Assembly: GCF_000023065.1 (NCBI RefSeq)
Contig: NC_012691.1
Span: forward strand, 1,470,501-1,534,500
Source of the DNA: Tolumonas auensis DSM 9187
GTDB taxonomy: Bacteria; Pseudomonadota; Gammaproteobacteria; Enterobacterales; Aeromonadaceae
Reading direction: 5' to 3'
DNA length: 64,000 nucleotides
In this document: in pieces, positions 16,076 through 32,946 of the stretch
Layout: the number at the start of each line of letters is the position of its first letter
How positions within the stretch are numbered: the first letter of the stretch is position 1
Made by a program: the position numbers and the translations under genes
The notes under the pieces: generated by a model
Told to the model about the DNA's origin: nothing
Database searches by the model: none
Seen by the model: the letters and a program-made list of their open reading frames with translations, nothing else

Positions 16076-16936
16076 ATGCGATCTGATTTGTTTAAAAAAT
16101 CTGCATTGCTCGGTTTGTTATTGCTGCCGGCTTTGAGTATAGCCGCCGACAAACCAATACCACCGGCTAAGCCTGAAACGCCGGTTGTTGCTGCTGCAGA
16201 TAAAGAACCTATTTATGGTTACCAACTGATGACTGAGCAAGAACGGGCAACTTTCCGTACTCAGATGCAAGCCGCTACAACAGACGAAGAACGTCAGCAG
16301 ATCCGTCTTCAGCATCGGGAACAAATGCTTGAACGTGCTAAAGCTCAAGGCATCACCTTACCTGAACCACCTGCGGTTGCTCCTGGTGAACAACCTGTGT
16401 TTGGTGGCCGGATGATGACAAATGAAGAACAGATGCGGTTCCGCACTCAAATGCAGAATGCGACAACTGATGAAGAACGTCAGCAAATCCGTCTTCAGCA
16501 CCGGGAACAGATGCTTGAACGCGCCAAGGCTCAAGGCGTCACCTTGTCTGACCCGCCAGCGATAACTCCGGGTGACGAAGTTGTTTTTGGTGGACAGATG
16601 ATGACGATGGAAGAACGGCTGCAGTTCCGCACTCAGATGCAGAATGCGACAACTGACGAAGAACGTCAGCAGATCCGTCTGCAACACCGGGAACAAATGC
16701 TTGAACGTGCTAAGGCCCAGGGCGTTACGTTGTCAGACATGCCGATGATGAACGGTCAGGGCATGGGTAAAGGCATGGGAATGGGGATGGGCGGTGGCAC
16801 CGGATCTGGTTCCAGCTCCGGTTCTGGCTCTTCTAGCTCTGGCTCAAGTTCTGGTCAGGGAAGCAGCGGCAGTAGCAGCGGCGGCGGAAATAGCGGCGGT
16901 GGAAGTGGAAATAGTGGTGGCGGCGGCGGTAAATAA
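16076..16936 (+). CDS. exported triple-repeat protein with Gly/Ser-rich tail
   Basis: A 286-residue protein of unknown function. A signal peptide (ALLGLLLLPALSIAA) precedes three tandem ~55-60-residue repeats, each with MMT-EE...FRTQMQ.ATTDEER followed by IRLQHREQMLERAKAQG. The repeats are charged, helical and Gln-rich. A ~60-residue tail of Met/Gly then Ser/Gly follows. ATG 16076 is chosen because GGAGG lies 5 nt upstream; the longer frame uses a TTG inside that site. The repeats are nearly identical even in DNA, suggesting recent expansion. It shares a near-identical 3' terminator region with the next gene. Confidence 0.75.
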   Translation: MRSDLFKKSALLGLLLLPALSIAADKPIPPAKPETPVVAAADKEPIYGYQLMTEQERATFRTQMQAATTDEERQQIRLQHREQMLERAKAQGITLPEPPAVAPGEQPVFGGRMMTNEEQMRFRTQMQNATTDEERQQIRLQHREQMLERAKAQGVTLSDPPAITPGDEVVFGGQMMTMEERLQFRTQMQNATTDEERQQIRLQHREQMLERAKAQGVTLSDMPMMNGQGMGKGMGMGMGGGTGSGSSSGSGSSSSGSSSGQGSSGSSSGGGNSGGGSGNSGGGGGK

Positions 16937-17007
16937 CCTGTCACCAGATATAAACCAATCCGGGGCTCAGCGTTAAGTTGGCTCCGGATTTTTTTATTGC
17001 AGATCAC
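16932..17007 (+). repeat. duplicated 3' region with terminator, copy 1
   Basis: About 76 bp that recur almost unchanged at 18498-18572. The copy holds an intrinsic terminator (AATCCGGGGC/GCTCCGGATT plus T-run, 16957-16995). The two copies follow two different protein genes. Confidence 0.85.
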
Positions 17008-17221: not shown

Positions 17222-18495
17222 ACGCATTCAAATTGAATAAACTCTGGCAAATCGTAGTTGCAGCGTTATTTATTGGCATAAGTGCCGGCGCCTATGCTGC
17301 GAAGGGCAGCCCTGGCGGTGGAGGCGGCGGCGGTGGCGGCGAACCTCCAGCCACTGAAACGGGCTCCAACAACTTGTCTTTCCCGGTGATCTTGTCAGAC
17401 AACATTGGCCCATTCCCTGCGGATGGTCTCTGGCGATTCGCCCCGATCACCACCCCGGAAACGGAGTGCATCGGCGAGTCAGGCGTGACAGCTGGTGAGC
17501 CGGTACCGCCTAACTTCCTGTGCTACTACGGGCGCCATGTCACCGTTATATCAGAGACAGGAGCGATCCAGTTCGACGAGCCTACCAAGGTCTGGTGGCT
17601 GCAAAAACGTACACAGAACTTCTGGAAAGCGCTGACCGTCGGTAATAACACCGGTACACCGCTGGTTGTGAGTGCGGTTGATGTTGGTGACCTGCTGGAA
17701 TCCACCCCGTCGCTTGCTACGCGGCAGATCCGTGTTGAGTTCAACTTGTTGCAGAACGTGCCGTCGACCGGTAGCCCTCTGAGCCCATATCTGGTGGCCG
17801 ATTGGACCGACGGCATTCCGATGCCATGCACCGTGCCTAAGGAAGTGGGCCAGACCAGCATCGGTTGCTTCGCAGCTCTGGGCATGAGCGGGGCAGTGCC
17901 CGGCACTGAACAGTCCGGCAACGAGATGCAGGGCACCGACTTCGGTCCCGGTCCTGACGCCAGTTTGCTTACAGGCACGCAAGTTCTGATTGACCCGACT
18001 ACCGTGAGACTAGCAACAACTCCTGAGGGTACCCCTATCCCGATCCACGCGCTGGTATACTCCCAATGCGCACGTCTGGTGATCCAGAAGATCGGCGGCA
18101 CGCCAACCTGGGATAAGACCACCGGGCAGTGGGCCGGCGAAGGTGTGGGAACACCGCTGGTCAACGTCGCCACTTATTCGACTACCAGTCCCTGGTCAGT
18201 CGAAATCACCTCGGGCGGCAGCATCGTGTATGGCTACAACTGGAACGCCAAGAGCGCTGCCACAGGGACCTATCGTCTGACCTTTGTGCTGGACGGTAAC
18301 GACGCCGAAGGACCACAGTGTTCAACGCAGTTGGCAACCATGTTCGGCCCTCTTGGTGGCACCCAGCTTGTGAATGTCGGTGAGAATTTCGCTCCGAGCA
18401 TCATCGCCAAAGGTGACTCCGCGCTTGGTGATGAAGGTGGTCTGGTCTACATTGACATCCCGCTGTCCACTAAAGGCGGTGGCGGCAGACGGTAA
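17218..18495 (+). CDS. exported protein of unknown function, Gly-rich termini
   Basis: A 425-residue protein. A signal peptide (IVVAALFIGISAGAYA) is followed at about residues 32-42 by a run of glycines, then a ~370-residue beta-rich, Thr/Pro/Gly-rich domain with eight or so Cys residues, and a GGGGRR C-terminus. I do not recognise the family. Codon use is visibly richer in G/C than the flanking genes, suggesting horizontal origin. ATG 17218 has AAAAGGA upstream and overlaps the preceding small ORF. The gene ends at a near-copy of the upstream gene's terminator region. Confidence 0.7.
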   Translation: MNAFKLNKLWQIVVAALFIGISAGAYAAKGSPGGGGGGGGGEPPATETGSNNLSFPVILSDNIGPFPADGLWRFAPITTPETECIGESGVTAGEPVPPNFLCYYGRHVTVISETGAIQFDEPTKVWWLQKRTQNFWKALTVGNNTGTPLVVSAVDVGDLLESTPSLATRQIRVEFNLLQNVPSTGSPLSPYLVADWTDGIPMPCTVPKEVGQTSIGCFAALGMSGAVPGTEQSGNEMQGTDFGPGPDASLLTGTQVLIDPTTVRLATTPEGTPIPIHALVYSQCARLVIQKIGGTPTWDKTTGQWAGEGVGTPLVNVATYSTTSPWSVEITSGGSIVYGYNWNAKSAATGTYRLTFVLDGNDAEGPQCSTQLATMFGPLGGTQLVNVGENFAPSIIAKGDSALGDEGGLVYIDIPLSTKGGGGRR

Positions 18496-18497
18496 TA

Positions 18498-18572
18498 AAT
18501 AACCTGTCACCAGAGACAAACCAATCCGGGGCTCAGCGTTAAGTTGGTCCCGGATTTTTTATTGCAGATCAC
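18498..18572 (+). repeat. duplicated 3' region with terminator, copy 2
   Basis: Near-identical to 16932-17007, including the terminator (AATCCGGG/CCCGGATT plus T-run, 18523-18560). The stem difference is compensated: GCTCC becomes GTCCC and the stem becomes a perfect 8-bp match. Confidence 0.85.
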
Positions 18573-18792
18573 ATATTTTCTGATGTGCTTCAAATAAATC
18601 TCTCATAAAACGTGTCTATAGTGTTCATCCGGTTCCTGAATTAGGGTCAGCTGATGGAACAGCTATACCGTGCATTTCAGCTTCACCAGCTCTTAATTAC
18701 CTCCTGCATACCACCATCGTTAGCTCGTTGTCTGGAGCATTTGGCGTTACGGAAAATCATGATCCAATCCCCGCGAAAAGGATTGAGGAAAT

Positions 18793-18846
18793 ATGAGACA
18801 TAAAATTGCAGGTTCTGCGGTTGGGCTAGTGATTATGGATAATTAA
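18793..18846 (+). pseudogene. 17-codon stub with strong ribosome site
   Basis: ATG 18793 follows TTGAGGAAAT and opens 17 codons (MRHKIAGSAVGLVIMDN) to TAA. The start looks like a signal-peptide beginning cut short 25 bp before cas1. It follows a region (18573-18790) with the same layout as the upstream of the 17218 gene, including a shared GTCTATAG. I read it as the 5' end of a third secreted-protein cassette truncated at the CRISPR-Cas junction; a genuine mini-peptide is the alternative. The rest of 18573-18792 shows nothing else I can assign. Confidence 0.4.
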
Positions 18847-18870
18847 TTAAAAATTACCGGATATAAAAAT

Positions 18871-19848
18871 ATGGAAGATTTTTCACCTTCTGAGCTTAAA
18901 ACGATTCTGCATTCAAAAAGAGCAAACTTATATTATTTGGAGTATTGCCGGGTATTAGTTAATGGTGGCAGGGTTGAGTATGTCACTGAAGAGGGGAAAA
19001 AATCACTGTATTGGAATATTCCCATCGCTAATACAACAGCAGTCTTATTAGGTACAGGAACATCAATCACACAAGCAGCCATGCGTGAGTTTTCAAAGGC
19101 TGGAGTGCTTGTTGGTTTTTGTGGTGGCGGTGGCACACCACTCTTTTCAGCTAATGAAGTAGAAGTCGATGTTTCCTGGCTTAATTCTCAGAGTGAATAT
19201 CGCCCAACTGAGTATTTGCAGCATTGGGTTAGCTTCTGGTTTCGTGATGATAAACGGTTAGAAGCTGCGATCGCCTTTCAAAAAATCCGTATTGATCAAA
19301 TTCGCCGGTTTTGGTTGTCTGCCAGAATGCAACGTGAGTCCAGTTTTAGTATCAGCGAAGTTCAGCTAATAGGGGTACTCGATAGTTTCAGTGCACGGTT
19401 GACTAGCTGCCAAACCAGTAATGATGTGCTGGCTCAAGAGGCCATCATGACCAAAGCGCTTTATAAGCTGGCCGCTAATGCTGTTAAGTTTGGCGATTTT
19501 ACCAGAGCAAAAGGTGGAAGTGGGGTTGATATGGCTAATCGCTTTTTAGACCATGGTAATTACCTTGCTTATGGATTGGCTGCAACTGCTTGTTGGGTGA
19601 TTGGGTTACCTCATGGCCTGTCGGTTTTGCATGGCAAGACTCGGCGAGGGGGATTGGTGTTTGATGTGGCAGACCTTATCAAGGATGCCTTGGTGTTGCC
19701 ACAGGCCTTTATTGCTGCAATGGCCGGAGATGATGAACAAGAGTTTCGACAGCGGATTATCACTGGTTTTCAGCAGGGTGAGGCATTGGATAGGATGATT
19801 GATGCTATCAAAGAGGTGGCGGAGACCCTCAGTGAGGCAGGGAAATGA
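18871..19848 (+). CDS. cas1: type I-F CRISPR-associated endonuclease Cas1
   Basis: A 325-residue Cas1 of the I-F class. It cuts and integrates new spacers together with the Cas2 domain of the next gene's product. Catalytic and metal residues are in place: E190 (AQEAIMTKALYK), H254 (LPHGLSVLHGKTR), D265 and D268 (FDVADLIKDA), the same spacing as the well-studied P. aeruginosa protein. It overlaps cas2-3 by 4 nt (ATGA). The ribosome site is weak. It is the first gene of the cas locus and appears intact. Confidence 0.97.
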   Translation: MEDFSPSELKTILHSKRANLYYLEYCRVLVNGGRVEYVTEEGKKSLYWNIPIANTTAVLLGTGTSITQAAMREFSKAGVLVGFCGGGGTPLFSANEVEVDVSWLNSQSEYRPTEYLQHWVSFWFRDDKRLEAAIAFQKIRIDQIRRFWLSARMQRESSFSISEVQLIGVLDSFSARLTSCQTSNDVLAQEAIMTKALYKLAANAVKFGDFTRAKGGSGVDMANRFLDHGNYLAYGLAATACWVIGLPHGLSVLHGKTRRGGLVFDVADLIKDALVLPQAFIAAMAGDDEQEFRQRIITGFQQGEALDRMIDAIKEVAETLSEAGK

Positions 19849-22800
19849 ATATTCTGTTGGTGTCCGAATGCAGCAAGAAAGCTTTGGTGGAAACAAGAAG
19901 AATTCTTGATCAATTTGCCGAACGCAAAGGTGAACGGACTTGGCAGACTGCTATCACACAGGAGGGGCTTAACACCTTGCGTAGGTTGTTACGCAAGAGT
20001 GCGCGACGTAATACGGCGGTCGCATGCCATTGGCTTAAAACCGGAGGTAAGAGTGAGTTACTGTGGATAGTTGGCAATCTTAGTTGCTTTAATGAGCAAG
20101 GCTCGGTGCCAACTAACAGTACTGAGTACAATATCCTAAAAGCTCAGGATGAAGACTGCTGGCATACAGCTGAAGCGATGGCGTTACTAGCTGGGATTTC
20201 TGGACTGTTTCACGATTTTGGCAAGGCTAATCTGTTGTTTCAGCAGAAGCTGCAAGGTATAGGCTCACTTTGGTCTGAGCCCTATCGTCATGAGTGGGTG
20301 TCATTACGACTATTTCAGGCGTTTGTTGATGGTCGAAGCGATCAAGATTGGCTTACAGAACTGGCAACTGTGACGCCAGCTCGTGATGTGAGCTTGCTTG
20401 ATGCTTTGCGGCATTATCAGGATGCACCTCAAACTCTAGGTGGCAATCCTTTTGCTGATCTACCGCCGCTGGCACAAGTTGTTGGCTGGCTGATCGTCTC
20501 TCACCACAGGTTGCCAGAATTTATTGAACGTCCGGATTCACAACTACAGGCACCGAACATAGAAAAATTGCATATTTCTGAATGCTCTCGTTTTAATGCC
20601 AGTTGGATATCCCCCCAATGCTTCAATGATGACTGGAAAACTGAACATTGGCAAAAAGTGTGGCAATGTCAGCATGGTACTCCGATAGCTAGCCAGACTT
20701 GGTGTGTCAAGGCGCGTGAGATTGCCGGACGAGCATTAAAACACTGTTCACTGTGGCAACCCGGCAATTATTGGCTGGAAGATCGTTTTACCAGTCATCT
20801 GGCCCGTTTGTCGCTGATGTTGGCGGATCATACATATTCTGCAACTAATCCTACTGCAAAATGGCAATCGCCTGATTATCAGGCCTATGCAAATACTGAG
20901 CGCTCAACGCGACAACTCAAGCAAAAACTGGATGAACACAACATTGGCGTTGGACAGAATGCTTTGTTGCTTGCCAAGCGTTTGCCACAGCTAAAACGTC
21001 ATCTACCCGCTATCACTCGACACAAAGGGTTTAAGCAACGCAGCGAGTCGGATATTTTCCGATGGCAGGACAAAGCATTTGACCTGGCTCGTTCACTGGC
21101 GGCGTCTTCGACTAAACAGGGTTTTTTCGGCGTCAATATGGCGTCAACAGGCTGCGGCAAGACCTTTGCCAATGCTCGCATAATGTATGGATTGTCCGAT
21201 GAAAAGTTGGGCTGCCGTTTCAGTATCGCATTGGGATTGCGCACTCTGACACTGCAAACTGGTGATGCATTGCAATCACGTCTGCATCTGGAAAGTGATG
21301 ATTTGGCTGTGCTAATTGGTTCTCAGTCGGTGCAGCAGTTGCATGAATTGCGCAAAGAGGATGAACAAAAAGCAGCTGCTGACTCTACGGGTAGTGAGTC
21401 GGCTGACGAGTTGTGGGATGAACTTCAACATGTGCGTTATGAAGGAAGTCTGGATGATGGTCCGCTACGCCATTGGTTGAAACAGTCGGATCAGCTACAT
21501 CGACTGATCAGTGCTCCTGTACTGGTTAGCACTATAGATCACCTGATTCCTGCAACCGAAGGGACTCGCGGCGGTCGGCAAATAGCTCCCATGCTACGTC
21601 TGCTCACATCAGATCTGGTGCTGGATGAGCCGGATGACTTCGATTTGGCTGATTTGCCTGCTCTCTGTCGGTTGGTTAATTGGGCGGGAATGCTTGGAAG
21701 CCGTGTATTGCTGTCTTCTGCCACCTTACCTCCGGCTTTGGTTTGCGCTTTGTTTGATGCTTATCAGAATGGTCGACAATACTTCAATCGTGCTTGTGGT
21801 GAGCCAAATGTAAGTGCTGCGATCTGTTGTGCCTGGTTTGATGAATTTGGTTGTGAACAGTCGTTGAATTTGACAAGGGCCGATTTCAAACAGGCTCATA
21901 AAATTTTTGTCGGTCAACGTATCGTTCGATTAGACAAAACTCCTAATACTCATTTACGGCGAGGTGCTTTGTTACCGGTGTCCGTTTCGGGTACCAAACC
22001 AATTGAGGTGGTGACTGGAGTTGCTGAAGCCCTTCATCAAGGGATGGTTCTATTGCACCAAGCCCATCATCAGTGTCATGAGGCAAGCGGCAAGTGTATT
22101 TCGATTGGCCTTATTCGTATGGCTAATATCAATCCACTGGTGGCTGTTAGTCAGCAGCTATTAGCTATGGCACCACCTGTGGACACACGAATCCATTTTT
22201 GTATTTATCACAGTCAGCATCCAATGTTGGTGCGATCAAGAATGGAGGCTCGCCTGGATAAGGCATTAACGCGCCATAATCCCGAAGCGTTGTGGGAATT
22301 ACCTGAGGTGAAAACAGCCTTAGAACAGCCAGAAACTCACCATATCTTTATTGTGATTGCTTCGGCTGTCGCAGAAGTAGGGCGTGACCATGATTATGAC
22401 TGGGCCATAGCAGAGCCAAGCTCTATGCGCTCGCTGATCCAGTTAGCCGGGCGTATTCAACGCCATCGTAAACGAGTACCTGGCACGGCAAATCTTTTGA
22501 TCCTGAATAAGAATATCAAGGCTCTCACCGGTAAATCCCCTGCTTATCTGCAACCGGGATTTGAATCTTCAGGCAACAAAGCATTTCAATTATCCAATCA
22601 GGATTTGCAAACGATTTTGTTACCTGAGCAGTACCAGACTATCACTGCTAACCCTCGCATTGTTCACCCTGAAAAAATGGATCCAAAAATGAATTTGGTA
22701 GCATTGGAACATGCTCATCTTGTGGCGTGGTTGTTTGGTCATAAGGATTTTTCCTGTCATGCCACACAGTGGTGGCAAGAAGATCCTCACTGGTGTGCTG

Positions 22801-23153
22801 AGCTGCAACGGCGAACTCGATTCCGAAAATCAGAACCTGATGAATCCTTTGTTCTTTATCAGGAAGATGAAGGTGATAACCCCATCTTTTATCGTCAGAG
22901 TGACCACGGCGAATTATCTCTAGTTGATAAATCTGTTTTTGCCCACATGGAATTCACTCCGACTATGGGTATTCAGCCTTGGCTGGACAATGATGTAGAA
23001 GCTTTGATTGCCGAATTAGCTGAACGGCTGGAGCGCGATGTGGCTTGGGTCAGTCAGCGTTATACCGAATTACGGCTGCGAGTGCGTAACGATAATGACA
23101 TCAAACTCTGGCATTACAACCCTTGGTTTGGAGTGTATGACACGCTGTATTAG
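19845..23153 (+). CDS. cas3: type I-F Cas2-Cas3 fusion (nuclease-helicase)
   Basis: A 1102-residue fusion typical of type I-F. Residues 1-~95 form the Cas2 domain (MNILLVSECSKKALVETRRI). An HD nuclease domain follows with H123-D124 in LFHDFGKANLLF and a later H (YRHEW). The superfamily 2 helicase has Walker A ASTGCGKT (433-440), the DEPD motif (594-597), SSATLP, and the motif VI region LAGRIQRHRK. It degrades target DNA and forms the Cas1-Cas2 integration complex. All key motifs are present, so it is probably active. Its stop codon lies in the loop of a 13-bp hairpin. Confidence 0.97.
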   Translation: MNILLVSECSKKALVETRRILDQFAERKGERTWQTAITQEGLNTLRRLLRKSARRNTAVACHWLKTGGKSELLWIVGNLSCFNEQGSVPTNSTEYNILKAQDEDCWHTAEAMALLAGISGLFHDFGKANLLFQQKLQGIGSLWSEPYRHEWVSLRLFQAFVDGRSDQDWLTELATVTPARDVSLLDALRHYQDAPQTLGGNPFADLPPLAQVVGWLIVSHHRLPEFIERPDSQLQAPNIEKLHISECSRFNASWISPQCFNDDWKTEHWQKVWQCQHGTPIASQTWCVKAREIAGRALKHCSLWQPGNYWLEDRFTSHLARLSLMLADHTYSATNPTAKWQSPDYQAYANTERSTRQLKQKLDEHNIGVGQNALLLAKRLPQLKRHLPAITRHKGFKQRSESDIFRWQDKAFDLARSLAASSTKQGFFGVNMASTGCGKTFANARIMYGLSDEKLGCRFSIALGLRTLTLQTGDALQSRLHLESDDLAVLIGSQSVQQLHELRKEDEQKAAADSTGSESADELWDELQHVRYEGSLDDGPLRHWLKQSDQLHRLISAPVLVSTIDHLIPATEGTRGGRQIAPMLRLLTSDLVLDEPDDFDLADLPALCRLVNWAGMLGSRVLLSSATLPPALVCALFDAYQNGRQYFNRACGEPNVSAAICCAWFDEFGCEQSLNLTRADFKQAHKIFVGQRIVRLDKTPNTHLRRGALLPVSVSGTKPIEVVTGVAEALHQGMVLLHQAHHQCHEASGKCISIGLIRMANINPLVAVSQQLLAMAPPVDTRIHFCIYHSQHPMLVRSRMEARLDKALTRHNPEALWELPEVKTALEQPETHHIFIVIASAVAEVGRDHDYDWAIAEPSSMRSLIQLAGRIQRHRKRVPGTANLLILNKNIKALTGKSPAYLQPGFESSGNKAFQLSNQDLQTILLPEQYQTITANPRIVHPEKMDPKMNLVALEHAHLVAWLFGHKDFSCHATQWWQEDPHWCAELQRRTRFRKSEPDESFVLYQEDEGDNPIFYRQSDHGELSLVDKSVFAHMEFTPTMGIQPWLDNDVEALIAELAERLERDVAWVSQRYTELRLRVRNDNDIKLWHYNPWFGVYDTLY

Positions 23154-23166
23154 AGCGTGTCATACA
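23134..23166 (+). terminator. hairpin enclosing the cas2-3 stop codon
   Basis: A perfect 13-bp inverted repeat (arms TGTATGACACGCT at 23134-23146 and its complement at 23154-23166) with a 7-nt loop that contains the TAG stop. There is no T-run, so it may act as an RNA stabiliser, a weak terminator, or the 3' barrier for the minus-strand RNA described next. Confidence 0.6.
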
Positions 23167-23167
23167 A

Positions 23168-23236
23168 CTACCTGTTCGGTAGCAAATGAGTCAATAAATG
23201 CTCACGCATTATATTTCTGAGCTGCCTGTACAGCAG
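23168..23236 (-). ncRNA. degenerate mini-CRISPR: CreA/CreR-like crRNA-type guide
   Basis: On the minus strand a repeat-like unit (23236-23214) carries the I-F hairpin CTGCT-GTACA-GGCAG and the handle CTCAGAAA; the array repeat has CTGCC-GCACA-GGCAG and CTTAGAAA. A 26-nt pseudo-spacer (23213-23188) follows. A second repeat-like unit (23187-23168) then has hairpin CTACC-GAACA-GGTAG, in which one stem pair is changed on both sides. Only the parts kept in a mature I-F crRNA are conserved; the 5' end of the first unit and the 3' end of the second have decayed. Expected product after Csy4 cutting is an 8-nt handle, a 26-nt guide and a 3' hairpin. CreA/CreR-type RNAs in other type I systems have this layout. 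No promoter was assigned. Confidence 0.8.
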
Positions 23237-23238
23237 CA

Positions 23239-23273
23239 TTAGGATTTTAGTCGAGCCGTCTCTAAAATCCTAA
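23239..23273. repeat. 12-bp perfect inverted repeat beside the mini-CRISPR
   Basis: Arms TTAGGATTTTAG (23239-23250) and CTAAAATCCTAA (23262-23273) with an 11-nt loop, ending 2 bp from the first degenerate repeat. Read on the minus strand, an ATG at 23277-23275 opens a 4-codon frame (M-L-G-F-stop) running into the stem. It could be an operator dyad, a boundary hairpin, or part of a CreT-like toxin RNA; these are inferences. Confidence 0.6.
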
Positions 23274-23280
23274 CATAATA

Positions 23281-23308
23281 TTTATTATTAATACTCACGC
23301 TTTATAGG
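23281..23308 (-). promoter_or_regulatory. predicted target site of the mini-CRISPR guide
   Basis: Minus-strand protospacer 23306-23281 with PAM CC at 23308-23307. Compared with the pseudo-spacer, positions 1-5, 7-13, 15-17, 19 and 20 match; 6, 14 and 18 mismatch; pairing ends after 20. In type I-F complexes every sixth guide base is flipped out, so the mismatches at 6 and 18 should cost nothing. Partial pairing of this kind favours binding without target destruction. The site directly adjoins the candidate csy1 -35 box. Confidence 0.75.
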
Positions 23309-23337
23309 TTGATCTTTTGTGGTTTCTTGGCTAATTT
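23309..23337 (+). promoter_or_regulatory. candidate csy operon promoter
   Basis: TTGATC (23309-23314), a 17-bp spacer and TAATTT (23332-23337), which would start RNA near 23344, about 39 nt before csy1. Matches to consensus are moderate (4/6 and 3/6). GATAAT at 23347-23352 is an alternative -10 without a good -35. Confidence 0.45.
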
Positions 23338-23382
23338 TTGTTTAATGATAATCAAGCAGGCTTCGCTTAAGAGAGGTTCGGG

Positions 23383-24699
23383 ATGGATACAATAAGCTTA
23401 TCGTCGGCGATAGATGACTACATATCATCGCGGCGCACCAGTCGTCTGGAGACGCGAGCTAAAGAGGCGGAAAAAGAACGTAAGACACTGGCTAACGATC
23501 AGTTAGCGTTAATGGCTTGGGAGCAGAAGCAAGCTGATTTGTTAAGGTCTGAGGTTGAAAGATATCTTCCGGCTAATTGGCTGGATGATGCGGCTAAACG
23601 GGCCAAGCAAATTACTTTGGTGACTCATGCCCCAAAATACACAAATGGTGATGCTAAAGGCTCTGGCGTACTGGCAGATGTAACGCTGGCTACAGGAGAG
23701 TATCTTTGCACGGCTTCCCTATCAGCGTTGAATATCGATGTTGTGGGCAATGCCGCTGCATTAGATGTTGCTAACCTGTTATTGCTGGAGGTCAATGGAG
23801 AGCAGTTAGTTGACGTTTTGAGGCGAGGGGATGCATCGCCACTAAGTCCTTTCGCTCGTGATGAGATGCAACTGGCAGAATGGTTGGCAGGTTTCAGACA
23901 AGCGTTGGAAAGTGGTGCTCTCAGTTCGCATAAACTCGCTAAACAGATCTATTTTCCTGTGGGGGGAGACAGCTACCATCTGATTAGTCCCCTGTTTGCA
24001 TCATCCTTAGCTCAGGCTCAGCATGAGCGCATTGAGGGCCAACGTTTTGGTGAGGAAGCAAAAACTGCCAGAGTTGCTCGCAAGAACAGAGAGCCGCACG
24101 AAACAGATGTAATCGATTTCCCAAATCTGGCAGTACAGACTTTCGGTGGTACTAAACCACAAAATGTTTCTCTTTTGAATAGTGGCCGTCATGGGAAAGC
24201 TTATCTGTTAAATAGCCAACCGCCACGCTGGAAATCTCAGGATAAACCACCTGCCGATGATCAGGCATTCTGGCGTCAATATGGACGATTGGTGTACCCG
24301 AAAATACGTGAATTGAAAAGCTATCTACTTTTCGTGGTGGATAAAGAAAGTACATTATCTATCCGTGACCGACGAGCTGAACTAGTCGCAGACTTGGTAT
24401 CGGAACTGCATCAGCTAGCTGCGCGAATACAATCACAAGTCGCAGGCTGGAGTCTTAATACATCACTAAGTATTACTTTAGCGCATTGGCTCGATCCGGC
24501 TCGTGACGATAAAGAATTTGTCGAGGTTCGGCTGCGTAATGACTGGCAGCAAGGTGTTGGTGAGCAATTTGCTACTTGGCTAAATCGACAGTTGCAGAAT
24601 GAGCAATTGCAGATGAAGGATGCAGAACACAGTATCTGGCGCAAGTTAGTGGAACGCGAACTCAAATTGTTGAAAGGTGATCTGGAGGTGCTGGCATGA
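23383..24699 (+). CDS. csy1: type I-F Cascade large subunit Csy1 (Cas8f)
   Basis: A 438-residue protein beginning MDTISLSSAIDDYISSRRTS, matching Csy1/Cas8f, which with Csy2 caps the crRNA 5' handle and reads the CC/GG PAM. The conserved FGGTKPQNVSLLNSGRHGKA stretch (about residues 250-270) is present. ATG 23383 follows GAGAGG. It is the first gene of csy1-csy2-csy3-csy4, separated from cas2-3 by 229 bp that hold the mini-CRISPR and a candidate promoter. Confidence 0.95.
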   Translation: MDTISLSSAIDDYISSRRTSRLETRAKEAEKERKTLANDQLALMAWEQKQADLLRSEVERYLPANWLDDAAKRAKQITLVTHAPKYTNGDAKGSGVLADVTLATGEYLCTASLSALNIDVVGNAAALDVANLLLLEVNGEQLVDVLRRGDASPLSPFARDEMQLAEWLAGFRQALESGALSSHKLAKQIYFPVGGDSYHLISPLFASSLAQAQHERIEGQRFGEEAKTARVARKNREPHETDVIDFPNLAVQTFGGTKPQNVSLLNSGRHGKAYLLNSQPPRWKSQDKPPADDQAFWRQYGRLVYPKIRELKSYLLFVVDKESTLSIRDRRAELVADLVSELHQLAARIQSQVAGWSLNTSLSITLAHWLDPARDDKEFVEVRLRNDWQQGVGEQFATWLNRQLQNEQLQMKDAEHSIWRKLVERELKLLKGDLEVLA

Positions 24700-25673
24700 A
24701 GTCTTTGCTGTTGTTACGTCAGATCAATGTGGAAAACGCAAATGCCATTAGTGGATTGACCTATGGGTTTCCTGGCATCAGCCATTTTCTCGGATTTACA
24801 CATGCTCTGTCACGCCAACTGATGCAAGCTCATAATCTACGGCTTGGTGGTTGTGCTGTGGTTTGTCATCATCATCAATTGCAGGCTTATCAACCCGGCG
24901 GCCGAGGTGATTTTGTGTTTGCGTTGACGCGTAACCCGCTAACTAAAGAGGCTAATACCGCCTCATTTAATGAAGAGGGACGTATGCACTTGCAGATTAG
25001 TCTGATGATTGAGTGCGAGTTTGATGCTGATGATTTACCTTTTGGTTCAGGCCAACCCGAGCAAGATGTAACTATGTTGACTGATTGGTTTTCCCAAAAG
25101 GTACCTTGTCTGCGCTTGGCTGGTGGCACCATTACTTCTGTGGGCCATGTGAGTTGGTTGGAGCTTAAACAAGATAGTGAGGAACAGCACAAGCAGGTTC
25201 GTCGTTTGATGATGCGACTGTTGCCTGGTTTTGCTTTGATTGGCCGGCATGAGTTGCTGTTAGCTCACCATCAGAAATGTCTGGCTGAGTCATCGGATGC
25301 TCAACTTATTGATAGTTGGCTGGATTTTGTTGCTTTGCGCTATCGAAGTGAGCGTGCAGATGCCAGTGGCCATGCCAATTGGGTTATGCAGCCCAAACCA
25401 GAGTCGGGTTATTTGGTGCCTATGGTTGTGGGCTATCAAGCAATTTCACCTTTATATGGCACTGGTGCAGTTGCCAACAGCCGAGATTCTGATACCCCGT
25501 TTTGCTTTGTCGAATCGGCTTATAGCATAGGTCAATGGCTAAGCCCACATAGGGTTCAATCATTAGAACAAATTATCTGGCGCTACCACTATAGCGATGG
25601 GCTTTACCTTTGTCATAACGGTTATACCAGTGTGGTCAATGAAGAGTTTGAAAACAGCGAAGAGAACTATTGA
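24696..25673 (+). CDS. csy2: type I-F Cascade subunit Csy2 (Cas5f)
   Basis: A 325-residue Csy2/Cas5f protein. [20 protein letters not shown] and [17 protein letters not shown] are the family's N-terminal signature. It binds the crRNA 5' handle with Csy1. ATG 24696 overlaps the csy1 stop (ATGA), indicating coupling. Length is normal and no damage is seen. Confidence 0.95.
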
Positions 25674-25684
25674 GGGATAATATC

Positions 25685-26704
25685 ATGGCTAAAAATGACA
25701 TTAAGACTGCTTCTGTACTGGCATTTGAACGTAAACTGGCCAATTCCGATGCCTTGCTTTATGCCGGCAACTGGTCTGAATTGGAGAATAAGAATGCGTG
25801 GCAACCCATAGCGATTCAGAGCAAAGATGTGCGGGGAACCATTTCCAATCGTCTGAAAAATGCAGTTGCCAGCGATCCAGCTAAGTTGGATGCTGAAATT
25901 CAGAAACCGAATTTGCAACGAGTGGATGTAGCTGCTTTGCCATTCGATGCGGATACGTTAAAAGTTAGCTTCACCTTACGAGTGCTTGGTGATCTGGTGA
26001 CACCTTCCGCCTGTAATGATCAGGACTATCAGGCAATTCTGAGTGAAAAAGTGGGCGCTTATATCCATGAGCAACAGTTCCATGAATTGGCTGCCCGCTA
26101 TGCTGAAAATCTGGCTAATGGTCGTTTCTTGTGGCGCAACCGTGTTGGGGCAGAAGCAGTCACAGTGAAGGTTAATCATCTGGTTGATCAAAAGATCAAA
26201 ACCAGTTGGAGTTTTGATGCCCTGGCATTCAACTTACGCCAGTTTACTAAACCTCAAGGGGATTCAGCAGCTCTTGCCGAAGTGATCCGCCAAGGACTAT
26301 TAGGGGATAGTTTTGTCTTATTACAAGTTGACGCTTTTGTCCGGCTAGGGGTAGGGCAAGAGGTATTCCCTTCTCAGGAGTTGGTGTTGGACGGTGGTCG
26401 CGACAGCACAAAAAGCAAATATCTCTATCAGGTGGGCAGCGTAGCCGCAATGCACTCGCAAAAGATTGGCAATGCTCTGCGCACAATAGACACTTGGTAT
26501 CCAGATGCGGAATGTCCGATTGCTGTTGAGCCTTATGGCTCGGTAACCAGTCGTGGTACTGCTTATCGTCAGCCTAAAGCAAAAATGGATTTTTATACTC
26601 TGTTGGATGGCTGGATGTTGAAAGATCAGCTGCCAAGTGTTGAGCAACAACATTATGTGATTGCCACCCTGATCCGTGGTGGTGTGTTTGGTGCAGCTGA
26701 TTAA
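25685..26704 (+). CDS. csy3: type I-F Cascade backbone Csy3 (Cas7f)
   Basis: A 339-residue Csy3/Cas7f protein that polymerises along the guide, one subunit per 6 nt. The start [20 protein letters not shown] is typical. The frame runs from 25670, but that ATG overlaps csy2 and lacks a ribosome site, whereas ATG 25685 has GAGGG 8 nt upstream. [18 protein letters not shown] and the C-terminal GGVFGAAD region fit the family. Confidence 0.95.
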
Positions 26705-26713
26705 GGAATCGCC

Positions 26714-27268
26714 ATGGATCACTATCTTGATATCCGGCTACTGCCGGAAGAACCTGAAGTGAGCGAGAGCTTTCTGCTCAATGCATTGTTCGCCAAACTG
26801 CATGTACGGTTAGGGCAGCAGGCACAGGGGCGGGTAGGTGTAAGTTTTCCTGACCATCACAAACGATTAGGTGATCTGCTGCGCCTGCATGGTCAACGCA
26901 CGGATCTACAGGCGCTGATGGCCGATGACTGGCTACAGGGGCTTAAAGGTTACACCCAGTGCAGTGAGGTTTTGCCGATCCCTGCAACGGTCAGTTATCG
27001 GGCTGTTAAAAGGGTGCAAGCTAAGAGTGCGCATAATAAAAGGCAGCGATCTATTGCGAAAGGCTGGCTTACTGAGTCAGAAGCACAGATCCGAATCCCA
27101 GATACCCAGCAAAAAGAACTTCATTTACCGTTTGTGCAACTGAAAAGTCGTTCCAATGGTCAGATGATGCGAGTGTATGTGGAGCATGGTCCTGTGTTGG
27201 CCGTTCCGGTCTCTGGCTATTTTAATGCCTATGGTCTCAGCTCTATAGCCACGATCCCTTGGTTCTGA
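26714..27268 (+). CDS. csy4: crRNA endoribonuclease Csy4 (Cas6f)
   Basis: A 184-residue Cas6f that cuts at the 3' base of the repeat hairpin and stays bound to it. The general-base histidine is H30 (AKLHVRLG), with candidate S147 (KSRSNGQ) and Y173 (NAYGLSS) completing the active site. An Arg/Lys-rich helix at about residues 96-116 (RAVKRVQAK, NKRQRS) would read the hairpin groove. It lies 9 bp after csy3 and is the last cas gene before the leader. Confidence 0.95.
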   Translation: MDHYLDIRLLPEEPEVSESFLLNALFAKLHVRLGQQAQGRVGVSFPDHHKRLGDLLRLHGQRTDLQALMADDWLQGLKGYTQCSEVLPIPATVSYRAVKRVQAKSAHNKRQRSIAKGWLTESEAQIRIPDTQQKELHLPFVQLKSRSNGQMMRVYVEHGPVLAVPVSGYFNAYGLSSIATIPWF

Positions 27269-27397
27269 CCCTTTTTCTTGCTGCCAACGCCAACCCATTA
27301 ATAATTAATAGGTTGGCGTTATGCGTAAAAATAGGGAAGTAGCTGGAAAATAATAAAAGCTCTTTCACAATCAGTATATTAGATTTAAATTGTTACG
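27269..27397 (+). promoter_or_regulatory. CRISPR leader with IHF site and dyad
   Basis: AT-rich leader between csy4 and the first repeat. AATCAGTATATTA (27369-27381) fits the IHF consensus WATCARNNNNTTR exactly and ends 16 bp before the first repeat; IHF bending of the leader is required for type I-F spacer integration. A 35-bp near-perfect dyad (27286-27320; arms AACGCCAACC/GGTTGGCGTT around ATTAAT repeats) lies just after csy4 and may end the csy transcript or mark the leader boundary. The degenerate repeat at the far end confirms that the leader is here. Confidence 0.8.
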
Positions 27398-30300
27398 CTT
27401 CACTGCCGCACAGGCAGCTTAGAAAAGCCAGACCAACCGATATGAGAGAGATCATGACTTCACTGCCGCACAGGCAGCTTAGAAATATTATTAGAAGCCA
27501 TTAAGCTAGAAAAAGATCTTCACTGCCGCACAGGCAGCTTAGAAATTGAAACCATTCTTTGAATTTTGGGCTTGTTGCTTCACTGCCGCACAGGCAGCTT
27601 AGAAAATCTTCCACTGATGGATAGTCGACTAGGATGCCTTCACTGCCGCACAGGCAGCTTAGAAATCCATTATCCCAGTTGTACGCATTCATGCGCTCTT
27701 CACTGCCGCACAGGCAGCTTAGAAAAGCTCACATGAACTGCCGTAGCTTGAGAATCCCTTCACTGCCGCACAGGCAGCTTAGAAAGAAAACCTGAATCGT
27801 GACAGGCTTCCGCACTCCTTCACTGCCGCACAGGCAGCTTAGAAATGGCTGTTTAACAGATGGCAGTCATTCTGTATCTTCACTGCCGCACAGGCAGCTT
27901 AGAAAAAATCAATCGCGTCAGTATTTCCACACCCTGCCTTCACTGCCGCACAGGCAGCTTAGAAAAGACGGTTTTTCCTTCCCCTCTAGCAGATACCCTT
28001 CACTGCCGCACAGGCAGCTTAGAAATTTACAGATAGCGTTATGTTGTAAGACTTCCGCTTCACTGCCGCACAGGCAGCTTAGAAAATGAAGCGCCAAAAG
28101 GCCGATGCCGCGTGGAACTTCACTGCCGCACAGGCAGCTTAGAAAGTCGACGAACTGGAGCACGCCGGAGCGCCGGACTTCACTGCCGCACAGGCAGCTT
28201 AGAAAAACGTAGGCGTGAATGGCGTCACAGGCATTTCCTTCACTGCCGCACAGGCAGCTTAGAAACGATGGCGCGACCGACATAGCAAACGCACTAACTT
28301 CACTGCCGCACAGGCAGCTTAGAAATGCCGCCCGGTGCAGGTCAATCATCGCGGTTTCTTCACTGCCGCACAGGCAGCTTAGAAATGGTACGCGCCTTGT
28401 GCTATTTCAGCTCCGCTCTTCACTGCCGCACAGGCAGCTTAGAAATGGCGCATTACCAGGTATCGGCAGATTACCGACTTCACTGCCGCACAGGCAGCTT
28501 AGAAAAGCAAGCGCGCAAGATGCTTGAGCGAATGAAACTTCACTGCCGCACAGGCAGCTTAGAAATATGTCAATCTGACCTGTTTTGAGCAAGAACACTT
28601 CACTGCCGCACAGGCAGCTTAGAAAAGACTGCCGCCAATGGCTTAGATACTGTAAATCTTCACTGCCGCACAGGCAGCTTAGAAATTTGGCGATCAGGTG
28701 GCGGCGATCCAATCCTCCTTCACTGCCGCACAGGCAGCTTAGAAATGGCGCGTTCATCGACTGATTTTAGTGCTAGACTTCACTGCCGCACAGGCAGCTT
28801 AGAAATTCGCGGTGATGTGGCGCTTCGCGGAGGAATACTTCACTGCCGCACAGGCAGCTTAGAAAGTCAGCCAGCTACACCGCCGCTGATGTGCTGGCTT
28901 CACTGCCGCACAGGCAGCTTAGAAAAACGGGGCAACTACGCATACTGGATGAGGTAACTTCACTGCCGCACAGGCAGCTTAGAAAGTAACACGTACCCAG
29001 AGCTGAAAGGCACAGTCCTTCACTGCCGCACAGGCAGCTTAGAAAGAAGGCTGAGAACCACGATAACCACAAAAAGGCTTCACTGCCGCACAGGCAGCTT
29101 AGAAATACCGAAAACGTCTACTGCTAAAAATAGGCGCCTTCACTGCCGCACAGGCAGCTTAGAAAGGAGCTGAGCAGCACGCTGGTGTCAGTCGTGACTT
29201 CACTGCCGCACAGGCAGCTTAGAAAAAGCGGTGCTGATCAGCATGGCGTATCAGATGCTTCACTGCCGCACAGGCAGCTTAGAAATTCATGATGGCAGGC
29301 ATGATGGGAATGCCGACCTTCACTGCCGCACAGGCAGCTTAGAAAAAGATCTGGTGCGCTTGCATTGCTTCCGGTGTCTTCACTGCCGCACAGGCAGCTT
29401 AGAAAAAGCCGATGATCCGCCGCTTCTACGCGTGGATCTTCACTGCCGCACAGGCAGCTTAGAAAACACCGGAGAAACGGGATTTTTTCGCACCACACTT
29501 CACTGCCGCACAGGCAGCTTAGAAAGGCGGCATATCGAAGTGATGCTGTATGACGAACTTCACTGCCGCACAGGCAGCTTAGAAAGGTTCAGGCGTACAA
29601 TAATTTCACCAATAGCCCTTCACTGCCGCACAGGCAGCTTAGAAAATTACAGTGTCGCCAGCCGGTATGCTTGCTGCCTTCACTGCCGCACAGGCAGCTT
29701 AGAAATGGCGTTAAACTGCAAATAGTTCTCCAGTGACCTTCACTGCCGCACAGGCAGCTTAGAAATATTGCGGTAAACGCATGAGATCCTGCCTTTACTT
29801 CACTGCCGCACAGGCAGCTTAGAAAAGCGGGGCAGGGATGGCGACATGGAACGCATGCTTCACTGCCGCACAGGCAGCTTAGAAAGAAAGTGATTGAGCT
29901 GTGCCATGGCATCAAGACTTCACTGCCGCACAGGCAGCTTAGAAATGCTTGCAACGGTTGGTAGCGAGCCATATCCGCTTCACTGCCGCACAGGCAGCTT
30001 AGAAAGCCTGCATCACTTATTGACCACATCATTGCAGCTTCACTGCCGCACAGGCAGCTTAGAAATGTGCAACCAGGTGAACAATGCGAACAGGTTTCTT
30101 CACTGCCGCACAGGCAGCTTAGAAATGCTGGGCGGCTGGCTCCGCGCTCAAAACTAGCTTCACTGCCGCACAGGCAGCTTAGAAATTTGATTTCACGCTC
30201 GATGCCGATCATGTGAACTTCACTGCCGCACAGGCAGCTTAGAAATGGGAAACTACCGCTCGACGTGCTAGACGTAGCTTCACTGCCGCACAGGCAGCTT

Positions 30301-32946
30301 AGAAAAATGACGGTAACCAGCTGGCAGCTAACTACTACTTCACTGCCGCACAGGCAGCTTAGAAATTTGCAAACAACAGAGACACAACCAGGTGTCACTT
30401 CACTGCCGCACAGGCAGCTTAGAAAAGTGATTGGTGTGCTGTCTTCGTCCAGGAACGCTTCACTGCCGCACAGGCAGCTTAGAAAATAAAAGCTGGAACC
30501 CACGCCCGCAGCGTGCACTTCACTGCCGCACAGGCAGCTTAGAAAAGGTAGAGGGAACCACCCACAGTCAGGTTGTCCTTCACTGCCGCACAGGCAGCTT
30601 AGAAAAGAAGAACAAATTGTTGTGTACCGGTTACGAGCTTCACTGCCGCACAGGCAGCTTAGAAACGCAGCGTGCACAAAGAACGCCAGCAAAGCCACTT
30701 CACTGCCGCACAGGCAGCTTAGAAAAGCTGGCAGCTAACTACTACACTGCCGAAATCCTTCACTGCCGCACAGGCAGCTTAGAAAAGCGGTATTGATGCG
30801 TTGTCTGGAGCGATCGTCTTCACTGCCGCACAGGCAGCTTAGAAAAATGTGCGCATTTTATCAGGATCTAATTCGACCTTCACTGCCGCACAGGCAGCTT
30901 AGAAAAATGGAAGCCCCACGTCAATCACTGTCTTATCTCTTCACTGCCGCACAGGCAGCTTAGAAAGCTGCTGCTAATGCAACAAAACAAATAAATAGCT
31001 TCACTGCCGCACAGGCAGCTTAGAAAGGCCGAGCGCGTGGGAATTGGCACGCAGAAATCTTCACTGCCGCACAGGCAGCTTAGAAAAAGGCATGGCCTGT
31101 AAATCTCGAATATTACGACTTCACTGCCGCACAGGCAGCTTAGAAAAACTGGTGAAACGCATTCCAGCCCGAAAGCGCCTTCACTGCCGCACAGGCAGCT
31201 TAGAAATGATATCGCCCGGTGGGGACATGGCAGCTGGTCTTCACTGCCGCACAGGCAGCTTAGAAAAGCCCGGCAGTAGCCATAAAATCCAAGGAAACCT
31301 TCACTGCCGCACAGGCAGCTTAGAAAATAAATGAATAAGATAAATATTCAAGAATAGCCTTCACTGCCGCACAGGCAGCTTAGAAACAATCCGCTTGCGC
31401 AATATTATGTATCTCCGACTTCACTGCCGCACAGGCAGCTTAGAAAGCAAACTGAGCGTTAAGTTGGATCTGTGTTTCCTTCACTGCCGCACAGGCAGCT
31501 TAGAAAAAAACACGCTGGGCATTGCTCGCCCTTTCTTTCTTCACTGCCGCACAGGCAGCTTAGAAAACATGGCAACAGATTATCACCACGGCGTCCGCCT
31601 TCACTGCCGCACAGGCAGCTTAGAAACGCTGCAATTATCGATTAGCCTGGCAGAACCGCTTCACTGCCGCACAGGCAGCTTAGAAAAGTACACGCTCTCT
31701 GTGCGCCCGGGCTGGATTCTTCACTGCCGCACAGGCAGCTTAGAAAATCTGCGATTTCACCTGGCCATGAGGTGCTTTCTTCACTGCCGCACAGGCAGCT
31801 TAGAAAAATTGGTACGACAACCGGACGATCTCGCACTACTTCACTGCCGCACAGGCAGCTTAGAAAAAGGAATCCGCCGTGATGGCGAATTTCACCAGCT
31901 TCACTGCCGCACAGGCAGCTTAGAAAATCGGGCGATCTGGGTGCGGCAGTAATATCGCCTTCACTGCCGCACAGGCAGCTTAGAAACAATCCCTGCGGGC
32001 TTGCGCGGTATGGGGGCACTTCACTGCCGCACAGGCAGCTTAGAAAGGAAATCTCCAAATCACCGTCAATCTCATATTCTTCACTGCCGCACAGGCAGCT
32101 TAGAAATGCGTCCCATTTTTTGACCTGCATCAAAGAAACTTCACTGCCGCACAGGCAGCTTAGAAACAAGCGTGATGAATATCATCCCGATTTTTCGTCT
32201 TCACTGCCGCACAGGCAGCTTAGAAAAGTAATTAGCTCCTGCTCTGCCAGCTGAATGACTTCACTGCCGCACAGGCAGCTTAGAAAACCGTAACCAGCAG
32301 GGTCACGATATACGTTGACTTCACTGCCGCACAGGCAGCTTAGAAAGTGGCCGCAAACGCGAATACGGCACTAATGCCCTTCACTGCCGCACAGGCAGCT
32401 TAGAAAGTTATCTGCGACGTCTAGTTTAGTCAACCATTGTTCACTGCCGCACAGGCAGCTTAGAAAATTTGATAGGTATTATGGATTATTTCTTTGCGGT
32501 TCACTGCCGCACAGGCAGCTTAGAAATTTGTTTATCAAAAAGAGCCAATACCGAGTGCGTTCACTGCCGCACAGGCAGCTTAGAAAATTAATGCCGAGAA
32601 ATACACTGGCGGAAAGTTGTTCACTGCCGCACAGGCAGCTTAGAAATTATTAATGCTCTTAATGAGTCTATAACGTTAGTTCACTGCCGCACAGGCAGCT
32701 TAGAAACAGCTGCCGTCCATTCACAAAAACGGACGATGGTTCACTGCCGCACAGGCAGCTTAGAAAGGTATGTCAACAGCGGGGTCAAATCTGTTTGGGT
32801 TCACTGCCGCACAGGCAGCTTAGAAATTCCTTGAAATTGTGTGGGGCAATGTTCGCGAGTTCACTGCCGCACAGGCAGCTTAGAAAAGACGCCCGCATTG
32901 TTGTGATGGAGTTGTGGCGTTCACTGCCGCACAGGTAAATTTAAAA
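27398..32946 (+). CRISPR. type I-F CRISPR array, 93 repeats, 92 spacers
   Basis: 28-bp repeats (start CTTCACTGCC, end AGCTTAGAAA) at a strict 60-bp period. All spacers are 32 nt except one of 33 nt (30906-30938). By position count there are 59 repeats from 27398 to 30878 and 34 from 30939 to 32919. The first 84 repeats begin with C; the last nine (from 32439) begin with G, the usual I-F base. The final repeat (32919-32946) is intact for 17 nt and then degenerate, marking the old end. Two spacer pairs overlap (30306/30726 and 30486/30666). Long ORFs of FLSCLCGSE or LHCRTGSLE repeats here are artefacts. Confidence 0.99.

Follow-up and report, generated by a model that had tools for sequence, protein, structure and literature searches.

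Mini-CRISPRs (CRISPR, clustered regularly interspaced short palindromic repeats) of the CreR kind are described, in the accessible parts of the sources, as encoding an RNA that is partly complementary to a cas promoter and mediates autorepression (PMC13131331, PMC12737573, PMC12948488); one review among these names the subtypes I-B, I-E and V-A. No type I-F CreR was found among the literature matches listed, a coverage that lacks the primary CreR paper and most papers behind a subscription. In type I-F, a mini-CRISPR guide together with Csy is reported, in the parts of the paper available, to repress a toxin gene approx. sevenfold in a Csy4-dependent manner (PMC10097628). Solitary repeats termed Racr are presented, in the available text, as inhibitors encoded by viral genomes (PMC10651486). 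Here we report on a mini-CRISPR in the gap between cas2/3 and csy1 of the type I-F locus of Tolumonas auensis DSM 9187, within a stretch of 64,000 nt (NC_012691.1, positions 1,470,501 to 1,534,500, forward strand; hereafter "the window", to which all coordinates refer). Judged from the sequence, this mini-CRISPR is probably (at roughly 85%, by our own estimate) a type I-F CreR, whose CRISPR RNA (crRNA)-like guide would autorepress csy1-csy4.

The gap extends over 229 bp from the cas2/3 stop codon at 23153 to the csy1 ATG at 23383. The mini-CRISPR occupies 23160-23241 on the minus strand and consists of two degenerate I-F repeats around a 26-nt guide, i.e., as in CreR, it is a mini-CRISPR with degenerate repeats placed beside cas genes. 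Read on the minus strand from 23213, the 26 nt between the pseudo-repeats are TATAATGCGTGAGCATTTATTGACTC. Both pseudo-repeats fold as stem-loops with a 5-nt loop, and pairing in the stem of pseudo-repeat 2 is kept despite changes on both sides. The mini-CRISPR alone gave a fold z of -2.5, which was equalled by 3 of 200 shuffles; together with both flanking inverted repeats, the fold z was -6.8. A consensus scan of 23100-23420 detected no terminator at these inverted repeats (23134-23166 and 23239-23273). By eye, similar hairpins were also seen near the cas3 end in two other loci (L010 and L012).

The first-pass annotation had claimed that the guide matches the minus strand from 23306 at positions 1-5, 7-13, 15-17, 19 and 20 of its first 20 bases, next to a correct CC protospacer adjacent motif (PAM). 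Both claims were borne out: the target, TATAAAGCGTGAGTATTAAT on the minus strand from 23306, matches 17 of 20 bases (mismatches at 6, 14 and 18), and CC is found at 23308-23307. The elements of the gap are as follows.

23134 to 23166, no strand assigned: inverted repeat of 13 bp that spans the cas2/3 stop codon, adjoining pseudo-repeat 2 (from letters and folds)
23160 to 23187, minus strand: pseudo-repeat 2, matching the array repeat at 16 of 28 bases, with stem CTACC/GGTAG
23188 to 23213, minus strand: guide of 26 nt, array spacers being 32 or 33 nt (from letters and comparison)
23214 to 23241, minus strand: pseudo-repeat 1, matching the array repeat at 20 of 28 bases, with handle CTCAGAAA
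23239 to 23273, no strand assigned: inverted repeat TTAGGATTTTAG...CTAAAATCCTAA between mini-CRISPR and target (from letters and folds)
23287 to 23306, minus strand: target site
23307 to 23308, minus strand: CC PAM
23309 to 23314, plus strand: candidate -35 TTGATC, touching the PAM, weak by consensus
23332 to 23337, plus strand: candidate -10 TAATTT, 17 bp after TTGATC, weak by consensus

Among the 6975 CC sites of the window, the target was the best match to the guide (score of 13.5 vs 10.0 for the next site). None of 100,000 guide shuffles reached 13.5 in the cas3-csy1 gap, which by simple count holds 13 CC or GG; the best shuffle scored 12.0. At the core positions (1-5 and 7-11), the guide matched 10 of 10 in this gap, as compared to 7 of 10 for the best of the 91 native spacers; across the 9-kb cas region (18400-27390), 5 of the 91 native spacers matched 9 core positions and none matched all 10. 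The seed plus PAM, CCTATAANGCGTG, has one exact occurrence in the genome (a single contig of 3,471,292 bases), namely the target site, and 8 other places with one mismatch; as the backwards control has 25 genome places with at most one mismatch, this short pattern alone is not enriched. No second guide target was present upstream of cas1 or at 27260-27400. In partial databases, viral contigs contained no 20-mer match to the guide, and a phage match of 17 bases was at chance level. An ordinary immune spacer was considered and rejected, as the repeats are non-canonical, the guide is not 32 nt long and no mobile-element match was found in the partial databases.

Regions upstream of csy1 were also analyzed in two sets of I-F loci, a first set of 92 loci (window included) from the same family, order and class, and a second set of 79 of 80 loci from named records, with L146 dropped; as the sets share at least five contigs, their tallies are kept apart. 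Manual curation of the 92-locus table removed three loci that run off contig ends (L005, L011 and L070) as well as duplicates (L001, L002, L006, L007, L008, L010 and L058); the weak hits G547, G743 and G762 were not in the sample. A candidate guide was defined by a repeat-like hairpin plus handle (in laxer looks, the handle alone was also accepted), and the pair test evaluated its best nearby CC-flanked match against a null of shuffled guides. Gaps of at least 170 bp were considered long, a cut-off fixed after the data had been seen.

Under a uniform test of the long gaps (window included), a guide/target pair was found in 38 of 44, as compared to 0 of 44 reversed gaps and 1 of 132 letter-shuffled gaps. 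With the laxer looks included, the first set showed a pair in 40 of 44 long gaps, 0 of 39 shorter gaps and 3 of 9 gaps that were not measured; the corresponding numbers for the named set were 24 of 32, 0 of 41 and 2 of 6. The zero counts for short gaps are partly trivial, as a mini-CRISPR does not fit into a gap below approx. 100 bp, and the reversed and shuffled gaps are therefore the better control. Five pairs (L025, L031, L059, L064 and L072) came from a laxer second look; four of these pass the uniform test and L059 fails (P = 0.017). L063, which matches at 8 of 10 core positions, was retained, while L161 (P = 0.004) was not counted as a pair. The csy1 of L068 contains stops, and the target is located 13 bp upstream of the predicted csy1 start in L115 and within it in L125. 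Guide and target are on opposite strands in 4 of the 69 pairs (L024, L150, L178 and L181), which may be chance. Two csy1 loci (L133 and L181) lie approx. 16 kb apart on one Photorhabdus asymbiotica contig. Pairs were found, among others, in records of Pectobacterium, Photorhabdus, Dickeya, an Escherichia coli strain, Marinomonas, Aeromonas and Desulfamplus. Metagenome bins with the titles Desulfobulbaceae, Hyphomicrobiales and Phycisphaerales also have pairs; these bins may be misassigned.

Counting that of the window, there are 69 pairs, which represent 47 guide clusters with different letters, grouped by letter similarity and not by tree. Across these clusters, positions 1-5 were matched in 47 each, position 6 in 16, positions 7-11 in 42-46, position 12 in 15, position 13 in 44, positions 14-17 in 29-37, and positions 18, 19 and 20 in 15, 24 and 19, respectively; positions 21-28 were matched in 6 to 20 of 44. 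Positions 6, 12 and 18 were thus matched in 46 of 141 cells vs 181 of 235 for positions 13-17 (P = 2 × 10-17; Fisher's exact test). The scoring did not create these dips, as positions 6 and 12-20 all carried equal half weight. In the Csy complex, guide bases are flipped out at every sixth position, and the dips are as would be expected if the guides paired within it; the earlier suggestion that the mismatches at 6 and 18 in the window fall at such flipped positions agrees with this pattern.

When guides were compared to the region of another cluster, 9 of 10 core positions were matched in 1 of 552 trials and 10 of 10 in none (first 24 clusters). A total of 127 comparisons between similar guides, which are non-independent and with counts inflated by the selection of matching pairs, showed 533 double changes that keep a match, 63 doubles that lose it and 170 single changes at paired positions. 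Guide lengths showed periodicity at 6 nt (P = 2.5 × 10-6; Rayleigh test on 44 lengths), as compared to P = 8 × 10-4 for period 5 and P = 0.05 for period 7; this stepping by six nt is suggestive only, as lengths of 18 and 27-29 are also present and the second hairpin was located by a simple rule. A worn-out self-targeting or immune spacer left from an old array, with no present function, would account for the degenerate repeats (20 of 28 and 16 of 28 bases identical), and such guides may indeed have started as spacers. This explanation is very unlikely, however, given the pairs in 47 clusters and their reduced matching at 6, 12 and 18, the controls of the uniform test, the stem of pseudo-repeat 2 kept by two-sided changes and the lack of a viral match in the databases covered.

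The feedback brake on csy1-csy4 put forward in the first-pass annotation thus gains support, at the level of sequence, from the anatomy, the pairs of the 47 clusters and the uniform test. Under autorepression, Csy4 would process the minus-strand RNA of the mini-CRISPR at both pseudo-repeat hairpins, and the product would be a crRNA-like RNA of approx. 54 nt from 23168-23221 (8-nt handle, 26-nt guide and 20-nt hairpin end) that would load Csy1-3. The resulting complex would occupy the CC-flanked target (23306-23287) by pairing in three 5-nt segments (positions 1-5, 7-11 and 13-17); its PAM-reading end would abut the csy1 -35, and RNA polymerase would be kept off. As the Csy level rises, transcription of csy1-csy4 would fall, while plentiful crRNA or a Csy-sequestering anti-CRISPR would lift the brake. 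Pairing between guide and target fades after approx. 17 nt, which is presumably too short to license destruction by Cas2/3. We infer the transcription, processing and loading of the mini-CRISPR, as well as the repression and the absence of cleavage.

The position of TTGATC and TAATTT, together with the data from relatives, suggests that they may represent the csy1 promoter, with a predicted start site near 23344, although their own motif is weak. Among relatives, a -35-like motif starts within 3 nt of the PAM in 25 of the 45 targets located on the strand opposite csy1, vs 26 of 621 control CCs; the motif used for this count was picked after viewing the sequences. A PAM and match upstream of csy1 are present in the window, with the promoter status of the site resting on position and relatives. 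One could also hypothesize that the guide mainly limits its own divergent transcription and that csy1 is a bystander, as the -35 belonging to a possible minus-strand -10 (TATTAT, 23280-23275) would fall within the target. The consensus scan gave no minus-strand promoter, however, and the PAM adjoins a csy1-side -35-like motif in many loci, which makes this possibility extremely remote.

The target is located 45-94 bp before csy1 in 17 loci, including the window and L024, one of the opposite-strand pairs (the limits of this near-csy1 class, 40-100 bp, were set by us). In the window, only 74 bp separate the PAM from the csy1 ATG, and we found neither a terminator nor an open reading frame (ORF) of at least 10 codons with a ribosome-binding motif between target and csy1; as in CreR, the stretch from target to csy1 thus showed no toxin gene by these ORF and terminator checks. 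These observations bear on a CreTA-type addiction module, in which the guide would repress a gene between target and csy1 with a toxic product (small RNA or peptide), such that Csy loss harms the cell. I-F CreTA modules in the cas3-csy1 gap with a CC-flanked target have been published (PMC10097628, in the parts available), several relatives carry an ORF between target and csy1, and a 16-codon ATG frame can be read at 23345 in the window. This frame has no ribosome-binding motif and overlaps csy1, however, and given the short distance to csy1 with no terminator and no suitable ORF, we regard such a module as quite unlikely here. No creT toxin was seen under the targeted promoter in the window by the ORF and terminator checks, which do not reach untranslated toxic RNA.

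ORFs were looked for in 38 pairs. In ten loci from a single family (L027, L029, L030, L033, L034, L036, L039, L040, L074 and L082), the target is separated from csy1 by a conserved ORF of 104-107 residues, which is a candidate guarded gene or regulator. When two copies were scanned, one had no Pfam match and the other a MerR-like match below threshold (E = 0.017). In L012, a 51-codon ORF between target (-237) and csy1 is preceded by a ribosome-binding motif, encodes a hydrophobic stretch and has no Pfam match.

Several observations weigh against the proposed autorepression. The first-pass placement of TTGATC against the PAM and 17 bp from TAATTT was correct; by consensus, this promoter is weak: the pair has 7 of 12 consensus bases, 27% of neighbouring positions score equally, and a sigma-70 consensus scan of 23100-23420 found no promoter at the default threshold. 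The guide (23188-23213) contains a self-complementary AATGC...GCATT that folds in the isolated RNA and might hinder loading. The scoring selected for matches at the core positions. Long-gap loci with no pair numbered 4 of 44 in the first set and 8 of 32 in the named set. Other loci have targets farther from csy1, some with an ORF between, and the element as a class is therefore not only a governor of csy1; target-csy1 distances (107, 122, 124 bp and more) also show no clean break. Finally, csy1 was absent from all 10 sampled genomes of the same genus (four of them <90% complete), and thus no close relative tests this very pair; a first contig search with the window Csy1 as query also found no close relative.

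More broadly, I-F cas operons split between cas2/3 and csy1 may nearly always carry an RNA-guided Csy switch, with guides maintained to pair in three 5-nt segments and with lengths clustered approx. six nt apart (near 14, 20, 25 and 31), and with truncated, non-destructive Csy complexes as dedicated repressors of csy1 in one class and of small guard genes in another; we advance this generalization tentatively, at slightly under even odds. Many anti-CRISPR proteins are known for type I-F. If autorepression is correct, it would extend RNA-guided autorepression to type I-F and offer a possible reason for split I-F operons and for a rebound of Csy when phages block the complex. The dozens of natural guide/target pairs represent a source for reading and testing the rules of non-destructive Csy binding.

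The surrounding genes, i.e., cas1, cas2/3 and csy1 to csy4 with an array of 92 repeats, constitute a complete type I-F CRISPR-Cas locus within the window, and all six Cas proteins scored above the curated NCBIfam cut-offs for this type.

18871 to 19848, plus strand: cas1 (type I-F), NCBIfam TIGR03637, E = 6e-154
19845 to 23153, plus strand: cas2/3 (Cas3f), NCBIfam TIGR02562, E = 0
23383 to 24699, plus strand: csy1, TIGR02564, E = 3.6e-111
24696 to 25673, plus strand: csy2, TIGR02565, E = 8.9e-94
25685 to 26704, plus strand: csy3, TIGR02566, E = 3e-138 (start 25685 in the scan, 25670 in the ORF list)
26714 to 27268, plus strand: csy4 (cas6f), TIGR02563, E = 8.9e-50
27398 to 32886, plus strand: canonical CRISPR array, 92 repeats and 91 spacers of 32 or 33 nt

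In this array, Rfam CRISPR-DR4 scored 50.1 bits for the last 8 of the 92 repeats (32439-32886) and 47.2 bits for the other 84, a difference that indicates two repeat variants. Upstream of cas1, a 65-nt sequence occurs 3' of two neighbouring genes (16930-16994 and 18496-18560; 94% identical), possibly as duplicated terminators, and three 186-bp repeats (16192-16749) lie inside the first of these genes.

Compared to the described systems, as far as the available parts of the sources extend, the window element shares with CreR a mini-CRISPR with a partial match upstream of cas genes and, as proposed, autorepression, and differs in belonging to type I-F, in the contact between PAM and candidate -35 and in the six-base pairing period across loci. 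With Racr (PMC10651486) it shares CRISPR-like repeats outside arrays; Racr is viral, whereas the window element sits between cas genes and its guide has a local target. The Acinetobacter I-F CreTA (PMC10097628) likewise has a mini-CRISPR in the cas3-csy1 gap, a CC PAM and two degenerate repeats, but the toxin RNA repressed there starts upstream of the target, whereas in the window csy1 follows directly and no toxin gene was seen. On the anatomy, which is the aspect that was tested, the window element is likely an I-F member of the CreR kind.
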